The notes under the pieces were generated by a model. It was not told the DNA's origin. It searched no databases and was given only the letters and a program-made list of their open reading frames with translations. Shown piece after piece: positions 16,911 to 22,947 of a DNA stretch of 22,947 nucleotides (position 1 is its first letter; each line of letters opens with the position of its first letter). The stretch comes from a virus. The translations under genes were made by a program, and so were the position numbers. Where the stretch lies: positions 1 through 22,947 of IMG/VR virus record IMGVR_UViG_3300025085_000200; one strand, given 5' to 3'.

Positions 16911-17504
16911 TTACCACTCTAAATCAATTTTTACCAACTCTCCTAAGTCTTCATCGAAGAAACTTAGATTACCATTTTCTACTCCCATTTTCCACACATC
17001 TAAAGTAAGTTGAGAATCTTTTAGACAATACTTTGCCACATCTTCATACTTACCTTCATTCCACCATCGGACAGCCATAAGTCCGTCACCGGACTTTTGT
17101 GAATTAAGATTACACTTAGCGAGATTATCCAATTGAACTCGCTTACCTGCCGCCTTTGTCATCATTCTTGATGTATCAATACAGCGTGTTTCTTTCTCTT
17201 CGAGATACTTACGGACAATATAAATGTCCATTGAATCTCGCAACGCAGGTAAATCAAAGGCTACAATATTATGCCCTAATAATTTACCACCCTTTTGAAA
17301 GTGGTCGTCTAAGTCATACTTAAGTTGTTTTAATTCTTTAACAACTGCACCTTCTATTTCCATAGGCTTATCAATATAAACCGTGTTATTCTCTCCATCC
17401 GTAGTAGTTACACAAGTAACTTTCCACATATGGGTATTCTGCCAACCGCCAATATCTGCGGCTGTATTTCCTGTTTCTATATCAAACGACAATATATTAT
17501 TCAT
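16911..17504 (-). CDS. DEDD-type 3'-5' exonuclease (PolB exonuclease-domain-like), stand-alone
   Basis: This 197-residue protein has all motifs of the ribonuclease-H-like exonuclease found in family B DNA polymerases. Exo I is S-F-D-I-E-T (D8, E10). Exo II is G-H-N-I-V-A-F-D (N79, D84). Exo III is Y-C-L-K-D (Y159, D163), the DEDDy type. Length covers the exonuclease domain only; no polymerase domain follows. It would remove 3' nucleotides, with proofreading for the viral polymerase likely. It is the last gene of the replication operon, overlapping the 62-residue ORF by 8 bases. It could also act in recombination or as a general nuclease. Confidence 0.85.
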   Translation of the reverse strand: MNNILSFDIETGNTAADIGGWQNTHMWKVTCVTTTDGENNTVYIDKPMEIEGAVVKELKQLKYDLDDHFQKGGKLLGHNIVAFDLPALRDSMDIYIVRKYLEEKETRCIDTSRMMTKAAGKRVQLDNLAKCNLNSQKSGDGLMAVRWWNEGKYEDVAKYCLKDSQLTLDVWKMGVENGNLSFFDEDLGELVKIDLEW

Positions 17505-17685
17505 TTTTTTTCACTTCCATATTTTTAATTAAATCAACGGGATAATTCATGTCCATCATTTCTATGACTTTCAATAGCATTTCTTCGTCTATGTAATTAA
17601 TAAACAAATCAATCATATCTTCCCTTGAAACTTCTTCTTCATCAAGCACTTGTCTAAAGCGCAATATTCTATTCTTCATAAACAT
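17497..17685 (-). CDS. Hypothetical acidic protein in the replication operon
   Basis: This 62-residue, helical, strongly acidic protein (E/D-rich, with D-E-E-E-V-S-R-E-D-M) has no recognisable domain. Its ATG overlaps the helicase stop (TAATG) and it overlaps the exonuclease start by 8 bases, so it is embedded in a coupled chain, which argues that it is real. AGGAAGGAA just upstream (end of the helicase gene) can serve as ribosome site. A small partner of the helicase or exonuclease is possible, from position only. Confidence 0.6.
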   Translation of the reverse strand: MFMKNRILRFRQVLDEEEVSREDMIDLFINYIDEEMLLKVIEMMDMNYPVDLIKNMEVKKNE

Positions 17686-19187
17686 TATTCCTTCCTCCTA
17701 ATATACACTCGGTTATTCATTTTTTTATTCTCGAACAAATGTTCTACACTATTCCATTCCCTATAAAAGGTTGGTCGACTTTTCTTAGTCATTTTCATAT
17801 AGTTATTTACCAATTCGGTCTTTGACACCCAACCGTCTTTCTTTGGGGCAGTTTGATAAACTTTAGCAATCATCTGTTCACGACCCTTTTCTGCCATTCT
17901 CTTAGGACTCTTTTTCAACTTATCACTAAACCAAGTGGTGATTGAATCAAAACTTTGGTCTGTAAGCATTCTTGCTTGGTCGATATGTCTTGCTGTTATT
18001 TTATCGCTCTTTTCAGCACAAGCACAAAGAGCCGCCGCATTACACATGTTATTAATTGTATTCATCAAGAAGGTATTTAGTGCGGCATATATATGGTCGG
18101 GGAAACCTTCCATGTATTTACGCATACCTCGCCAAACAGTCTTAAGTCTTTTCTGTGCGTCGGGAGTAAAGGTAGTAACAGTTCTTTTATCTCCTGTTTC
18201 CTTATATCTCGCATCTGCCCAACAATAAATGTCGTAAAGCATTTCCGAGAACTCAACTGTAAAGGCATCCGAACCATTTTCATCTTCAATAATATTACCT
18301 ACCATATCCAAATATTCTTCTTCCATTTGCATTTTTAATGATTCGGGGACTTCTCTTACATATAACCACATACGCTGAAAAACACCCTTTGTGAGAATAA
18401 CCTTTTCTAATCCCTGTGGTGGTAATGTAGTTGCCCATAAACTTCGCTGACAATCTACAACTAAATCCTTACCCCATTCAGTCAAACGCTTTTTGATTAA
18501 GTGGGTATCAGAATCTAAACGATTCATAAACTTTTGAAACATCATTACAGTATCTTGCTTGTGCTGTGTTTCCTTGAAGATACCCGAATGTTCAAACTCA
18601 TCAAAGGCAATAATACCAGAACCAAACAAAGCACCGTTAATATTAATGTCAATTTCTTCAGGCATTGGGTTTCCATCAATGTCTAAGTTTTCTTCACCAC
18701 GCACCCAATCAGGATTAGGTTGCCCTATTTTAATAGTTCCTAATAATGCTTGGTCTGTAAATGCGTCAGGGTTTTGTAGGTTGTATTCACTGACCCCATT
18801 TAATGGTCCTCTTGGGTTATCTCCCCTCATTGGATGCTCATTAACTAAGGTAAAGGTTCTTTCCCAAACGGGTGAAAGAAAGTCAAACATTGTAGTCTTT
18901 CCACTACGAGCAGTTTGAATCCAACAGTAATGTATTCTTGGGTCAAGCGAAAGACGGCCTACCGGAACTCTTAGTTTGTCTTTTAGTAATTGGCCGAGGG
19001 TTACAAAAAAGGCCATTTCTGCTGGATAGTCATTATACAATGAAAACTGTGTAACAACATCTGTCCACCTTTGAACTACCTTCGGCATTGTAACAGAACT
19101 TCTTCTTTCTGTTTCCACATCTCCATTCTGCATTTTTTCCAATGCTTCATATAATTCCCATTCGTCTACTTCTAAATCTTCTACCAT
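17685..19187 (-). CDS. AAA+ ATPase, probable replicative helicase with winged-helix C-terminus
   Basis: This 500-residue protein has Walker A T-A-R-S-G-K-T-T (92-99) and Walker B G-I-I-A-F-D-E-F (191-198). Sensor-1-like W-A-T-T-L-P-P lies near 251-257, and G-V-F-Q-R-M-W-L-Y-V-R-E-V-P (268-281) has an Arg (R272) in an arginine-finger-like position. The region after about 430 resembles a winged helix (G-W-V-S-K-T-E-L-V-N-N-Y) with an Arg/Lys-rich end. The order and the primase neighbour suggest a replicative helicase related to MCM or other viral AAA+ helicases. The A-R-S-G-K-T-T P-loop is not the usual MCM form, and it lacks the MCM N-terminal zinc domain. A DUF3987-type ATPase is an alternative. 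It starts at a TAATG overlap with the nuclease gene. Confidence 0.72.
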   Translation of the reverse strand: MVEDLEVDEWELYEALEKMQNGDVETERRSSVTMPKVVQRWTDVVTQFSLYNDYPAEMAFFVTLGQLLKDKLRVPVGRLSLDPRIHYCWIQTARSGKTTMFDFLSPVWERTFTLVNEHPMRGDNPRGPLNGVSEYNLQNPDAFTDQALLGTIKIGQPNPDWVRGEENLDIDGNPMPEEIDININGALFGSGIIAFDEFEHSGIFKETQHKQDTVMMFQKFMNRLDSDTHLIKKRLTEWGKDLVVDCQRSLWATTLPPQGLEKVILTKGVFQRMWLYVREVPESLKMQMEEEYLDMVGNIIEDENGSDAFTVEFSEMLYDIYCWADARYKETGDKRTVTTFTPDAQKRLKTVWRGMRKYMEGFPDHIYAALNTFLMNTINNMCNAAALCACAEKSDKITARHIDQARMLTDQSFDSITTWFSDKLKKSPKRMAEKGREQMIAKVYQTAPKKDGWVSKTELVNNYMKMTKKSRPTFYREWNSVEHLFENKKMNNRVYIRRKE

Positions 19188-19867
19188 TAGTATTTCACCT
19201 CTTGTTCTTCGTTTAACGCTTTTGAAATATTGGTGGCCGTCACTTTACCAATACCTTTTACTTTCATAATGTCCTTGATTTCGCATGTAGCGATTTCTAA
19301 TAATGACCCGAACTCACCTAAGAGATTACGAGCCTTTTCAATTGTAACTCCTTGTATAGTACAAAGAATGTCTAATCTCACATCATCTGTTCTTGTTTTC
19401 TTAGGTAACATTTTCTGTAAGTCTATTTCTTTATCACAGTGGTGTTCACAAGCGACTATAAAATGCGCCGCCGATTCTACATCTGCTACCCAAATAGGTG
19501 TTGTTTTTGTGTTCAATGCTATGCTCGATAATGCGCCTATAAACATCTTCTGTAACTTAAGTCTCCACCCTCTATTATTATAAGAGTTTCTTACATGGTT
19601 AAGATAAGAACCTGCATCGGAAAGATTACCGTATATGATAATGTAATTTCTCACATAAGAATCTTCCATGTTGCTAATTTGATTAAACATTCTCTTGTTA
19701 CGCACTGATTGTAGGAAGTCTTCGACACTTTTTGCTTCAATGCAAACATCGCCTATAATGTAATCTCCTACTTCCAAGAATATCTTTTCTGCTTCTATAT
19801 TAGATAACATACAATACTGTATTACCAGTTCACTTAAGACTGAATCTTCTCTACTGTCTATCAACAT
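19187..19867 (-). CDS. ERCC4 (XPF/Hef-type) structure-specific nuclease with HhH domain
   Basis: About 226 residues from the ATG at 19867; an upstream in-frame ATG at 19909 would add 14 residues inside the primase gene. The ERCC4 nuclease core is M-L-I-D-S-R-E-D (D4), V-G-D-Y-I-I-G (D35) and I-E-A-K-S-V-E-D-F (E44, K46, D50), matching the family G-D-x(n)-E-R-K-x-x-x-D except that the Arg is Ala. Two helix-hairpin-helix elements lie at about 173-189 and 203-218 (V-K-G-I-G-K-V-T-A). Archaeal XPF/Hef and MUS81-like enzymes with this layout cut flaps, forks and branched DNA. There is no helicase domain, so it resembles short archaeal XPF. Its ATG overlaps the primase stop by 7 bases. Confidence 0.86.
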   Translation of the reverse strand: MLIDSREDSVLSELVIQYCMLSNIEAEKIFLEVGDYIIGDVCIEAKSVEDFLQSVRNKRMFNQISNMEDSYVRNYIIIYGNLSDAGSYLNHVRNSYNNRGWRLKLQKMFIGALSSIALNTKTTPIWVADVESAAHFIVACEHHCDKEIDLQKMLPKKTRTDDVRLDILCTIQGVTIEKARNLLGEFGSLLEIATCEIKDIMKVKGIGKVTATNISKALNEEQEVKY

Positions 19868-20907
19868 TCTAATGCCCCCTGTGGGTATCTCCAGCACTTT
19901 CCTATGCAATACCCCTTGCTGATTAAAGTTTGACAGGAGGGGGACATATATCGCTTTTTAACGACATATGAAACACCACTTAAAGTCTTTCTTTCGTCAT
20001 AGTCAATCCATACATCTTCATTGGATGCAATCTTTTTAATTTCACCTGAAATAATACCAATAATATCTACAAGTGCATCGCCACCTACTTCTCTTGGTGA
20101 ACAGTCTAAACCCTTTTCAACAACTGTTAAGTCGGATAAGAACTCATTATACCATTGAACCAAGTAATGGCGAGATTCGTGTAATGGATTATGAGTCATT
20201 ACTGCTGCATTAAGACACGGAAGAATAGGTAAATCCCCCGGACTTTCAACATAATCAATTTCAATTTCTGCCGCTTCCATTTCCTTAACTTGAGGCCATT
20301 CTACTAAACCTTCACCATACCAAATAGGAGGTTGCTTACGAGGTTTCTTTGCTAAGTTGGTAATTGCCGACAATGGCTTTTTTAAATCACTACGGATTAG
20401 ATTTATAGAAAATAACTTAGCGCCCAAATGAAAGGTGTTTTGAGTTCTTCTCAATCGAGCAGTATTTATTACTCGGTTATCTAATCGAGGCGACTTACCA
20501 CATATATCGTGACATATGTTAAAGAAAGCCTTTACTCTTCTCAGGTCAAAAGTTCTTTTACCATAAACGAATATGTAGAAACCTCTACCACTAAAAGCCA
20601 TGTTGTGTTTGTAGTTATTTTCTGTAAGCCACTTGTGTAATATTTTCATATCATTCCATGCTTCCTCTAAAGATTCATCACCATGAGCATCAATGTCTAA
20701 AAATAACCTGTCGATAACTACCGTATGTTCAAGCCCTCTATCTTTAGAGAACTCTTCGTAATCATAGACGGAGGTATAAACATTCATCCTACCGTTATGT
20801 GCCTTAACGAACTCTTTGTATTTTTCTTTGTTCTGCACTACAACCCTTCTTGGTTGTATCGCATTCTCTAATGGACTTCCTGCCCACATTTCTCTCGGAT
20901 AATTCAT
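19861..20907 (-). CDS. Archaeo-eukaryotic primase: PriS catalytic domain fused to PriL-like Fe-S domain
   Basis: This 348-residue protein makes RNA/DNA primers. Residues 40-175 carry PriS motifs: R-L-F-L-D-I-D-A-H (metal ligands D71, D73), F-S-G-R-G-F-Y-I-F-V (105-114, where the usual His is Y111), and R-L-D-N-R-V-I-N-T-A-R-L-R-R-T-Q-N-T-F-H (141-160). The C-terminal part (about 225-348) matches the PriL C-terminal cluster domain: L-P-C-L-N (C231), then Y-M-S-P-S-C-Q-T (C325) and G-Y-C-I-G-K-C-W-R-Y-P (C334, C338), the spacing of the four [4Fe-4S] cysteines. Thus both primase subunits appear in one chain, as known from some archaeal plasmids and viruses. It starts just after a zinc-ribbon ORF, with AGGTGATGA as ribosome site. 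Confidence 0.85.
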   Translation of the reverse strand: MNYPREMWAGSPLENAIQPRRVVVQNKEKYKEFVKAHNGRMNVYTSVYDYEEFSKDRGLEHTVVIDRLFLDIDAHGDESLEEAWNDMKILHKWLTENNYKHNMAFSGRGFYIFVYGKRTFDLRRVKAFFNICHDICGKSPRLDNRVINTARLRRTQNTFHLGAKLFSINLIRSDLKKPLSAITNLAKKPRKQPPIWYGEGLVEWPQVKEMEAAEIEIDYVESPGDLPILPCLNAAVMTHNPLHESRHYLVQWYNEFLSDLTVVEKGLDCSPREVGGDALVDIIGIISGEIKKIASNEDVWIDYDERKTLSGVSYVVKKRYMSPSCQTLISKGYCIGKCWRYPQGALEC

Positions 20908-20911
20908 TTCA

Positions 20912-21016
20912 TCACCTGTCTATTAAATCTAAAAAACTTCTTGACTCGCATATTGAGCAAATGTTTTTATTCTTGTCTGTAAGTTCTGCCTTACAGTATT
21001 TGCATTTCTTTTTCAT
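20912..21016 (-). CDS. Zinc-ribbon mini-protein (CxxC-x11-CxxC)
   Basis: This 34-residue protein (M-K-K-K-C-K-Y-C ... I-C-S-I-C-E-S) has two C-x2-C pairs (C5/C8 and C20/C23), a minimal zinc knuckle or ribbon, and a short acidic/hydrophobic tail F-L-D-L-I-D-R. Its ATG begins directly after the stop of the 116-residue gene, and its TGA (20912-20914) lies 4 bases before the primase ATG, with AGGTGATG shared as that gene's ribosome site. This tight placement and conserved-looking cysteines support a real gene too short for usual callers. It may bind DNA or assist the primase, but this is inferred only from position. Confidence 0.75.
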   Translation of the reverse strand: MKKKCKYCKAELTDKNKNICSICESRSFLDLIDR

Positions 21017-21367
21017 TTACAACACCTTTGTGTCTTTTTTAATCTGTTTTTTTAACTCTTCCTTTGTGAGAGTTATCTTATTTTTCTGTTCTTCTATTGT
21101 AGGAGGAACTTGAGAAACTTGAGAAAGCATTACTGGTGCTTCATCAATAAGTTCAAGCATCTGATTCTTAGCATAAAAGGTGGCTTTATCCATCCACTTA
21201 CTCCTTATCATTTCCATACATTCTTCGCCTAAGAAATCAAGCATCTCTTCCCAAGAAGGTTCTTCCATGTTGTTTATGATATTGAAAATAACATCATCCA
21301 TTTTCATTAACTCCTTAAATGTCCAATTGTATTCTGTAATCTCTTTGATAATCTTAGAACCAATCAT
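21017..21367 (-). CDS. Hypothetical helical acidic protein in the replication operon
   Basis: About 116 residues from the ATG at 21367, chosen because GGAGGGGG (21375-21382 read on -) precedes it. A longer in-frame start at 21469 would run over 100 bases into the nuclease gene and has no ribosome site. The sequence is mostly alpha-helical with Trp/Met-rich segments (N-W-T-F-K-E-L-M-K; P-S-W-E-E-M-L-D-F-L-G-E-E) and a Lys-rich C-terminus. It overlaps the nuclease stop by 14 bases and abuts the zinc-ribbon ORF. No domain is recognised; function is unknown. Confidence 0.65.
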   Translation of the reverse strand: MIGSKIIKEITEYNWTFKELMKMDDVIFNIINNMEEPSWEEMLDFLGEECMEMIRSKWMDKATFYAKNQMLELIDEAPVMLSQVSQVPPTIEEQKNKITLTKEELKKQIKKDTKVL

Positions 21368-22253
21368 AATTTGTTCCCCCTCCAGTTGCCTCACAGTGTT
21401 CAAAATGTCCACAGTGAACACACTTCTTATGAAAATAAGAGAAAGGGAACTCCTTTGACATATATCCATCTACCAACTTTTGTATAGAATTTTCAACAGA
21501 AGTCATAGAACGCTTCTTAACATCTTCAACAAAGATGTAGTTACTTTTAGGGAAAATCCAACCCCAGTGAGTAATTCCATATTGTGGGTCTAATCCAGCC
21601 GCTACTAAATCATCTTCATCTGCGTTTTCGTAAAGCAGTTGATAGAAGGCCATTTCCTTTCTCATGTTTGTTTTCTTACTGTCTTTCCAAGCACCTGTCT
21701 TTAATTCAAACGGAATGTAACCATCGTCATCAAAAAACATTCTATCAATAATACCCTGTAAGTGAATAGTAATACCGTTAACACGATAAGTAGCATTTAA
21801 CAATATTTCGTTACCGATTGGTATAAAATGTTCTACCGTTCCTTCGTGAACGCACTCGATAAATCTTTCTGCTTGCCATGCAGACAAAGCCCTGTATAAA
21901 TCTTTAGTATCTTCATCTTTACCTTCTGGGTAGTAATCCCTAAAGTGTTTAACAAGTTTATTAGAATCGTCAATAAAGGGCATAGCCTTTTCAGTATCAA
22001 CCATTTTCCAGAAATCTTCTTGAGCATTGTGAACAATTGTTCCTCTTAACATAGCCTCCGATGTTTTCTGTTGTTTCTTACCTTCTGCGAATGGGTCATA
22101 ACTGTAACGATAAGAACCATTACAAAAGTTAAATGTTCCAAGTGAAGACTTAGTAATCTTCAGGGTTGGCCCTTCTAAATCATCAGGATTCCATTGATAG
22201 GTAAAACCATTATCTAAATCTTTTTGTGTCCATTCGGTTGCATATTCATTCAT
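21354..22253 (-). CDS. Cas4/RecB-like PD-(D/E)XK nuclease with Fe-S cysteines
   Basis: This 299-residue protein has the full Cas4-family layout. T-K-S-S-L-G-T-F-N-F-C (C44) is the N-terminal cluster cysteine. G-T-I-V-H-N-A (H75) supplies the catalytic His. G-I-I-D-R-M (D170) and F-E-L-K-T-G (E183, K185) form the PD-(D/E)XK core. R-K-E-M-A-F-Y-Q-L-L-Y (Q205) is the QhxxY motif. C-V-H-C-G-H-F-E-H-C (C278, C281, C287) completes a [4Fe-4S] site. Such enzymes resect DNA ends 5'-3' and occur in many archaeal viruses, where they serve replication or recombination. No CRISPR genes or repeats are in the window. Its ATG overlaps the preceding stop of the HNH gene. Confidence 0.88.
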   Translation of the reverse strand: MNEYATEWTQKDLDNGFTYQWNPDDLEGPTLKITKSSLGTFNFCNGSYRYSYDPFAEGKKQQKTSEAMLRGTIVHNAQEDFWKMVDTEKAMPFIDDSNKLVKHFRDYYPEGKDEDTKDLYRALSAWQAERFIECVHEGTVEHFIPIGNEILLNATYRVNGITIHLQGIIDRMFFDDDGYIPFELKTGAWKDSKKTNMRKEMAFYQLLYENADEDDLVAAGLDPQYGITHWGWIFPKSNYIFVEDVKKRSMTSVENSIQKLVDGYMSKEFPFSYFHKKCVHCGHFEHCEATGGGTNYDWF

Positions 22254-22735
22254 TCTTTCACTTCCTTAAGTGCATCAATTAAGGCTGATGCTTCACCTCT
22301 TGTCATATCCTCTCGGATAGATTCTTCACCGCCCAACTTTACTATGTAATTTCTTTGGGCTTCAGTTACAGGACCATTATGGTTCTTTACAGTCTTTGTT
22401 TGAGTAATACCTTTTTCTTCAAAAGCAGCCCTACGCAAACTTGCAGTTGTATTATCGTGACATTCTTTACATACCTCTACTACATTACTGCGGGAATGAA
22501 TAAGGTATTCCTTATTTATTTCTCTACATCTATGCTGTGATATAATATGATGCCACTCGGTTTTGCCTTCTGCAAAACAAATACTACAATGCCCCTGTTT
22601 ATTCCAAAATTGTCTTTCATCTTTTACAACCTTTAAGAACTCCTGTTCAATGGCTTCTATTTCTTCTTGCTTCTTTTTCTTGCGTTGCTGTAACGCTCTT
22701 AATGTTTTATAATATGTTCCTTCTTTTTTTCCCAT
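22250..22735 (-). CDS. HNH endonuclease-like protein with C-terminal accessory module
   Basis: About 161 residues from the ATG at 22735, whose TAATG overlaps the upstream stop; a longer start at 22795 lies wholly inside the upstream gene and is less likely. GAGGAGTGG just upstream gives a ribosome site. The N-terminus is Lys/Glu-rich coiled coil (about 10-50). The HNH domain reads C-S-I-C (C2), W-H-H-I-I-S-Q-H-R-C, S-N-V-V-E-V-C-K-E-C-H-D-N, giving two zinc-binding C-x2-C pairs and the catalytic His pair. The C-terminal segment T-E-A-Q-R-N-Y-I-V-K-L-G-G ... T-R-G-E-A-S-A-L-I is a small helical module found appended to many phage proteins (DUF3072-like). Cleavage target is unknown. Confidence 0.8.
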   Translation of the reverse strand: MGKKEGTYYKTLRALQQRKKKKQEEIEAIEQEFLKVVKDERQFWNKQGHCSICFAEGKTEWHHIISQHRCREINKEYLIHSRSNVVEVCKECHDNTTASLRRAAFEEKGITQTKTVKNHNGPVTEAQRNYIVKLGGEESIREDMTRGEASALIDALKEVKE

Positions 22736-22947
22736 TACCACCACTCCTCTAAAGTTGTTTGGTTTATATCTTTTTTTATGAGTTTTATAGGCCACTCCAT
22801 GCTTTCAAATATAAGCATAGCCTTCTTAATAATTTCTCCATTAGCGATAAACTCCCAATCGGGTGTGAACATACCTTCAATGTCCTTGAATTTCAAGAAC
22901 GAAATGTATTCACAGGATTTAGATACACCTTTAACGATGTAACACTT
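22735..22947 (-). CDS. C-terminus of a replication protein, probably family B DNA polymerase (partial)
   Basis: An open frame of 70 residues enters from the right edge and ends at TAA 22735-22737, overlapping the HNH start. The end reads P-D-W-E-F-I-A-N-G-E-I-I-K-K-A and I-F-E-S-M-E-W, finishing T-T-L-E-E-W-W. This resembles the thumb end of archaeal family B polymerases, where a D-x-Y-I-x-N-x-x-x-x-A-x-x-x-x-x-x-x-F segment is followed by a final x-L-x-x-W. The match is by eye over a short stretch and unverified. The polymerase motifs would lie right of the window. A stand-alone exonuclease in the same operon is consistent with a replicative polymerase here. Confidence 0.5.
   Translation of the reverse strand, partial: KCYIVKGVSKSCEYISFLKFKDIEGMFTPDWEFIANGEIIKKAMLIFESMEWPIKLIKKDINQTTLEEWW

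Follow-up and report, generated by a model that had tools for sequence, protein, structure and literature searches.

We identified a 34-residue open reading frame (ORF) in the replication gene cluster of a virus record as a real gene under selection, judging from its homologues and their codon changes. We consider it somewhat probable that its product is a micro-protein with a single zinc-finger domain, an optional part of the replication operon that acts as an adaptor or regulator and not as a dedicated subunit of the primase encoded next to it. Its reading frame lies between the preceding gene and that of the primase in what would be a polycistronic replication operon, and it is presumably translated along with both. 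One zinc would be held by four ligands, Cys4 here and Cys3-His in sister viruses, within a minimal treble-clef-like fold, in which a short hairpin is followed by a helix starting from the second ligand pair. Once folded, the protein may bind to nucleic acid or to another protein in the course of replication or early expression, and its role as adaptor or regulator would be an optional one.

The gene cluster and its small ORF

The window, by which we mean the whole stretch of DNA analyzed, is a 22,947-base virus record with assembly genes (tail tube and tape-measure-like matches) on the plus strand and a replication cluster on the minus strand. The order of the minus-strand cluster is HNH-like gene, PD-(D/E)XK nuclease, gene of unknown family, small ORF, primase, ERCC4 nuclease, 500-aa protein, 62-aa protein, and exonuclease, with the following features.

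22250..22795, minus strand: HNH endonuclease-like gene (PHROG HNH families, E about 1e-5)
21354..22253, minus strand: PD-(D/E)XK (RecB-like) nuclease (Pfam PF12705, E=3e-14; synteny)
21017..21469, minus strand: upstream gene of unknown family, a 150-codon ORF with a charged tail
20912..21016, minus strand: gene for a 34-residue zinc-finger-like micro-protein (C5, C8, C20, C23; homologues and purifying selection)
19861..20907, minus strand: archaeo-eukaryotic primase, 348 aa, by structure match to PriS
19187..19909, minus strand: ERCC4-type nuclease with helix-hairpin-helix (Pfam PF02732, E=4e-16)
17685..19187, minus strand: 500-aa protein with conserved synteny and no significant family match in Pfam and PHROG searches
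16911..17504, minus strand: 3'-5' exonuclease or RNase H-like gene at the cluster end (PHROG 403, E=2e-9; Pfam PF13482, E=5e-7)

The small ORF runs from 21016 to 20912, ATG to TGA, and its product is MKKKCKYCKAELTDKNKNICSICESRSFLDLIDR. The protein starts with MKKKCKYC and carries CSICES further on, giving the two C-x2-C pairs C5/C8 and C20/C23. The TAA of the upstream gene (21019-21017) directly contacts the ATG of the small ORF, and the small-ORF TGA (20914-20912) is separated by 4 bases from the primase ATG at 20907. The true start of the upstream gene probably lies inside the 150-codon ORF, because the 5' part of that ORF overlaps the nuclease gene. Its charged tail, identified by eye, is common to the gene that abuts the primase in many relatives without the small gene. 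Of the 158 window ORFs that span 25-60 codons, the small ORF alone has a C-x2-C...C-x2-C arrangement, and 60 dinucleotide shuffles of the window yielded one such ORF among 13,100 ORFs of the same size range. The coordinates confirm what a preliminary description of this DNA had reported, namely two C-x2-C pairs, tight packing between two genes, and a stop codon within 8 bases of the next ATG. Its placement of the ORF directly upstream of the primase also holds, since the downstream neighbor matches PriS in structure. We likewise agree that this is a real small gene with zinc-ligand residues, for which zinc binding is predicted.

Relatives of the cluster occur in virus contigs of up to 96 kb, and eleven of the records measure 86-96 kb. 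All 16 relatives searched have a family B DNA polymerase, and a Cpn60/TCP1-family chaperonin was found in 5 of 12 records. The MCM helicase, a magrovirus marker, exceeded the cutoff in none of 12 records and gave weak matches in 2. Magrovirales have genomes of 90-110 kb with their own PolB and archaeo-eukaryotic (AEP) primase and with replication and assembly modules in opposite orientation, and they are associated with marine Poseidoniales archaea (PMC10768690, PMC12999244). These features suggest a magrovirus-like virus with an archaeal host; the source is an uncultured marine tailed virus, probably of archaea. The records of L045 and L048 had the family B DNA polymerase matched as two separate ORFs; a PolB-NTD/CTD, like this split polymerase, is named in the legend of an Aoguangviridae genome figure (PMC10768690 or PMC12999244). 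At E<=0.01, the GenBank phage collection gave no relative for any of three proteins: the primase of the window, its 500-aa protein, and the primase of a second group of records (described below). Two metagenome-assembled genomes (MAGs) labeled Altibacter and Maricaulis (L051, NZTP01000016.1; L052, NZMJ01000151.1) also carry this type of viral primase. Because L051 and virus record L020 have identical primases, L051 and L052 look like virus contigs binned into bacterial MAGs.

Conservation, selection, and predicted fold

We collected relatives by primase searches, which gave 51 loci (L001-L014 and L016-L052), and later by scanning with degenerate DNA patterns. A homologous small ORF occupies the slot before the primase in 24 of the 51 primase-bearing relatives; these include near-copies and represent fewer than 24 independent lineages. 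The zinc-ligand layout of the family is C-x2-C or C-x4-C, followed by C-x2-C or C-x2-H. The window protein, L001-L005, L009-L011, L014, L025, L027, L029, and L030 are Cys4 members, and L016-L018, L022, L024, L028, L032, L033, L035, L036, and L050 are Cys3-His members with C-x4-C, such that both ligand sets and both spacings are found within one slot. Conservation of the cysteines in relatives had been proposed as a check, and the zinc-ligand positions are indeed kept, as C4 or C3H, in all 24 loci, a result that is partly built in because the ORFs were picked by ligand pattern. No ligand-less version of the ORF was present in the junction sequences of the other 27 loci. Loss of the cysteines or of the reading frame in close relatives, which had been named as evidence against the gene, was seen in no slot that holds it.

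All ligand columns are occupied in 20 of 20 aligned members, which were chosen by pattern, and the invariant columns of this 20-row alignment are C5, C8, K9, T13, and C20, of which K9 and T13 lie outside what the first search pattern required. The cysteine codons alternate between TGC and TGT while the cysteine itself is retained. Pooled pN/pS values were 0.34, 0.38, 0.37, and 0.44 in four clades of 5, 4, 3, and 7 members, a set of 19 from which L025 and its near-copies were left out, and single pairs ranged from 0.06 to 0.88 after correction. Amino acid changes are two- to threefold rarer than silent ones in the small ORF (Fisher P = 4e-13 for five pairs that were chosen post hoc, two of them perhaps nonindependent). 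By this record of codon changes, the ORF at 20912-21016 is a real, selected gene.

ORF length is 33-47 aa across the 24 primase-adjacent loci, and the junction with the primase differs among clades. The small ORF stops 4-8 bases upstream of the primase start in the window clade, overlaps the primase by 4 bases in L009-L011 and L014, and enters the primase gene in another frame by 31-43 bases or slightly more in the C3H and L025-like C4 members, where the overlapping tail is dictated by the primase N terminus. We rejected a programmed frameshift that would join the small ORF to the primase, because their frame relation varies among close relatives (offset of 109 bases in the window and 110 in L001 and L009).

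An AlphaFold2 model of the 34-mer built with 20 sequences (mean pLDDT, 82; pTM, 0.42) has two short strands forming a hairpin and a helix at residues 21-32 that begins at the second cysteine pair. In a zinc ribbon, both ligand pairs sit on beta-hairpin knuckles, while a treble clef consists of a knuckle, a hairpin, and then a helix with the second ligand pair at its N terminus. The modeled outline is closer to a minimal treble clef than to a zinc ribbon. The profile results can be set beside this model: Pfam Zn_ribbon_3 scored 15.2-15.9 bits against the window protein, below its cutoff of 27, and reached E<=0.1 in 8 of 20 family members (best, 0.0013). The CxC6 cysteine cluster PF18721 reached E<=0.1 in 10 of the 20 (best, 3.5e-5), and the window member was not among them. 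The label "zinc ribbon" in the preliminary description is not borne out by the subthreshold Zn_ribbon_3 score and the helix at the second cysteine pair. A PDB look-up with the 34-mer model returned no significant match (best Foldseek E, 1.8; best Z, 3.4), which is not evidence of a new fold. Net charge counted by eye is about +4 for the window member and about 0 for L001; the family is not uniformly basic, so nucleic acid binding is not clearly indicated.

Relation of the small gene to the primase

The AlphaFold2 model of the downstream protein, built with 33 relatives (mean pLDDT, 82), has a PriS-like catalytic domain at residues about 1-207 followed by a C-terminal part. It matched PriS subunits with Z scores of 13.5 to 1zt2 and 1g71 and a Foldseek E of 2.6e-5 to 5of3, and by this modeled structure, the gene at 19861-20907 is an archaeo-eukaryotic primase with a PriS-type catalytic fold. 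A PDB profile search with the primase alignments gave nothing significant (archaeal NHEJ polymerase, E of 0.8-0.9). Across 33 aligned relatives, the C-terminal half holds four invariant cysteines, C231, C325, C334, and C338, in a setting that by eye resembles the PriL iron-sulfur domain. The position after SGRGF, presumably the motif II histidine of primases, holds His in one clade and Tyr in that of the window.

Archaeal PriS has a zinc-binding motif inside the catalytic subunit. No invariant cysteine was present in residues 1-207 of the viral primase among the 33 aligned relatives, so the viral enzyme appears to be without this motif. In addition, residues 30-327 of 1g71 align to residues 1-189 of the primase model; the aligned range is longer in the archaeal protein, so inserted parts of archaeal PriS are missing from the viral enzyme. 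Both observations would suit a trans-acting zinc module, in which the micro-protein docks on the PriS-like domain, supplies the missing zinc motif, and aids template recognition or primer length control. So would the recurrence of the gene directly ahead of the primase, seen in 24 of the 51 loci and, among 30 stretches matched by our degenerate patterns, in 21 (20 of which are already counted among the loci). We nevertheless regard this explanation as quite unlikely given where the gene is absent and where else it is found.

A dedicated primase subunit would be expected always to accompany the primase, and the small ORF is missing from the primase slot in 27 of 51 loci. In five of these, an unrelated ORF of 52 codons extends to the primase, and in the others the upstream gene does so. 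On a primase tree built from 49 full-length rows, of which 24 (counting the window) have the gene, the distribution needs 5 changes of presence, at least 4 of which are forced by well-supported branches. Absence is clean, with both flanking genes open, in L023, L026, and L031 against the carriers L022, L025, and L068, and such gene-less and gene-bearing neighbors can have primases that are about 97% identical (335/346 residues for L022/L023 and 331/343 for L025/L026). The gene-less L026 primase has an extra cysteine (Asn to Cys near residue 288), but a cysteine is also found there in the gene-bearing L009 and L017. We searched for the gene elsewhere in the gene-less records with a core-only profile, A4, which matched 9 of 9 positive records and 0 of the 20 gene-less records searched (of 27; five were 88-96 kb and most others fragments); its single extra match was weak, at 11 bits, and lay within a positive record. 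Matches of another profile, A2, in gene-less records were rejected as the out-of-frame primase N terminus by their place and profile range; they arose because A2 also covered the segment of the ORF lying over the start of the primase gene. The primase therefore seems to work without the small protein, and the small gene appears to be optional.

The family also occupies a second genomic location. The degenerate-pattern scan of the viral collection, with pattern spacers checked against known loci and L025-like C4 members outside its reach, returned 30 stretches, 17 C3H and 13 C4. A primase follows in 21 of them, all but L068 being records already counted, and no primase follows in the other nine: L056, L058, L059, L062, L067, L070, L075, L078, and L082, some of which are near-copies. 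ORF starts are ambiguous in L058 and L059. Five of the nine were read further (L056; L067 with L083; L070; and L084 and L085, the records of L059 and L082), and the remaining four were viewed as the matched stretch alone. In these five, the small gene is flanked by genes for 214-237-aa and 91-106-aa proteins, with a clamp loader downstream, and the cluster also holds a nucleotide kinase in L070 and an AAA_24 ATPase in L056. The second-context ORFs encode 34-35 aa in the C4 members L070 and L085 and 62-63 aa in the C3H members L056 and L067. C4 and C3H ligand sets are both present in both locations; thus, the gene moved within, or was swapped between, replication clusters. In the second context, the gene preceding that of the small protein carries a CPLC/CPMC motif of its own (L070:497-1207, L056:7184-7825, and L067:358-1005), and no family match was found for its L070 and L056 copies.

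A divergent primase of the same kind was located in 3 of the 9 second-group records, 11-14 kb downstream of the small gene, a distance that further argues against a module docked on the primase. The same nuclease lies upstream of it, and the ERCC4 nuclease follows it in the two records that reach that far. Directly before this primase, however, lies a different, unrelated small C-x2-C...C-x2-C protein of 50-64 aa with a longer, ribbon-like cysteine spacing (L083:11625-11819, L084:12268-12450, and L085:15890-16042), and this repeated use of the slot could mean that compact primases favor a small zinc protein alongside. The repetition may also be a coincidence, as three related records are few and small CxxC ORFs are common in these clusters, numbering 0-4 per 7-16-kb locus across 18 loci with the window-type family counted. 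A gene whose product by eye resembles a cytosine-C5 DNA methyltransferase lies at L085:14763-15899, with the RecB-like nuclease on one side and the small zinc-ribbon-like gene on the other. The suggestion in the preliminary description that the protein might be a primase accessory is weakened by the 27 loci that do without the gene, by the three near-neighbor pairs with clean absence, and by the nine pattern matches that no primase follows; its other suggestion, a regulator, may hold and is one of the two roles in the reading that we favor. A broader speculation, which we hold to be highly improbable, would have a compact PriS-PriL fusion primase without an internal zinc motif served by exchangeable, separate mini zinc proteins, each of them dispensable. 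One group would use the treble-clef-like C4/C3H finger and the other the unrelated ribbon-like protein, and zinc proteins of the host or other viral ones could stand in.

The position of the ORF, which ends close to or overlaps the primase start, might instead reflect a translational switch that acts on the primase as Mu Com acts on mom, and in L056, L067, and L070 the small ORF likewise runs into the start of the gene after it. Extracts of the literature provide the precedent of Com (PMC6483171) and cite Brz as a regulator (PMC7230728). We found no clear occluding RNA structure at the primase start: the mean unpaired fraction from -15 to +6 was 0.52 in gene-bearing and 0.58 in gene-less sequences, as computed for 20 of the 25 gene-bearing rows (window included) and for 17 of the 27 gene-less loci, with some of the start codons set by hand. 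A GGTGA motif at the primase start is kept in the gene-less L023 and L031 and not in L026, and the gene that is overlapped is not the same in the two contexts. A switch of this kind is unlikely on these data.

The adaptor or regulator that we favor was also weighed against an effector directed at the host, which would bind host RNA polymerase, the ribosome, or a defense protein at an early stage of infection and whose place in the operon would set only its timing. Patchy presence, relocation, and fast sequence change are typical of accessory early genes, and the family has all three, with the fast change falling outside the ligands. This explanation is nonetheless very unlikely in our view, since the gene stays inside replication clusters in both contexts and profile searches gave no telling similarity.

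Comparison with known systems

The small gene is not described among the matches listed for open-license literature on magroviruses, archaeo-eukaryotic primases, and small zinc proteins (titles and abstract starts). The comparisons that follow draw on extracts of the cited papers. The neighboring primase resembles PolpTN2 in that a PriS-like domain is followed in one chain by a PriL-like part carrying four Fe-S cysteines, but PolpTN2 has at least 923 residues, going by the name of a deletion, against about 345 here; its published text does not mention zinc (PMC3973330). Mu Com is a 62-aa Cys4 zinc protein that activates mom translation (PMC6483171). Like the window protein, it is a small Cys4 protein encoded in one operon with a neighbor, in its case the gene that it regulates. 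It differs in having a disordered tail and in binding an mRNA hairpin near a translation-inhibiting structure, a kind of structure that was not seen here. AFV1p06 of the virus AFV1, a 59-aa DNA-binding zinc-finger protein, offers a likeness from an archaeal virus but has a eukaryal zinc-finger fold, both according to PMC7230728, and is set beside the window protein by description only. Cellular small zinc-finger proteins of <70 aa share the single zinc-finger domain, and C4 and C3H sets are both mentioned for them. Unlike the window family, they have knockout phenotypes, and many of their C4 fingers carry C(P)XCG where the window protein has CKYC and CSIC.

Such a family of about 34 residues, traceable in marine viruses known by sequence alone, is of interest because micro-protein genes of this size are readily overlooked in annotation. 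The pairs L022/L023, L025/L026, and L068/L031 are natural contrasts for the role of such proteins, and the recurrence of a four-cysteine protein in front of the primase hints at how single-chain viral primases deal with the zinc element. There is a likeness in setting to the HF1-group haloviruses (Serpecor1 and Hardycor2), which have numerous CxxC micro-proteins of <100 aa, none in the assembly region (PMC7230728). Both are tailed archaeal double-stranded DNA viruses with CxxC micro-proteins, if the archaeal host predicted here is correct. The window family differs from the HF1-group proteins in its recurrent slot before the primase, its two ligand sets, and its traced absence and relocation. 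Small viral CxxC proteins are already known, and what is new here is that one family has been defined, along with its ligand swaps, a tally of the loci that have it or lack it, and its two places in the genome.
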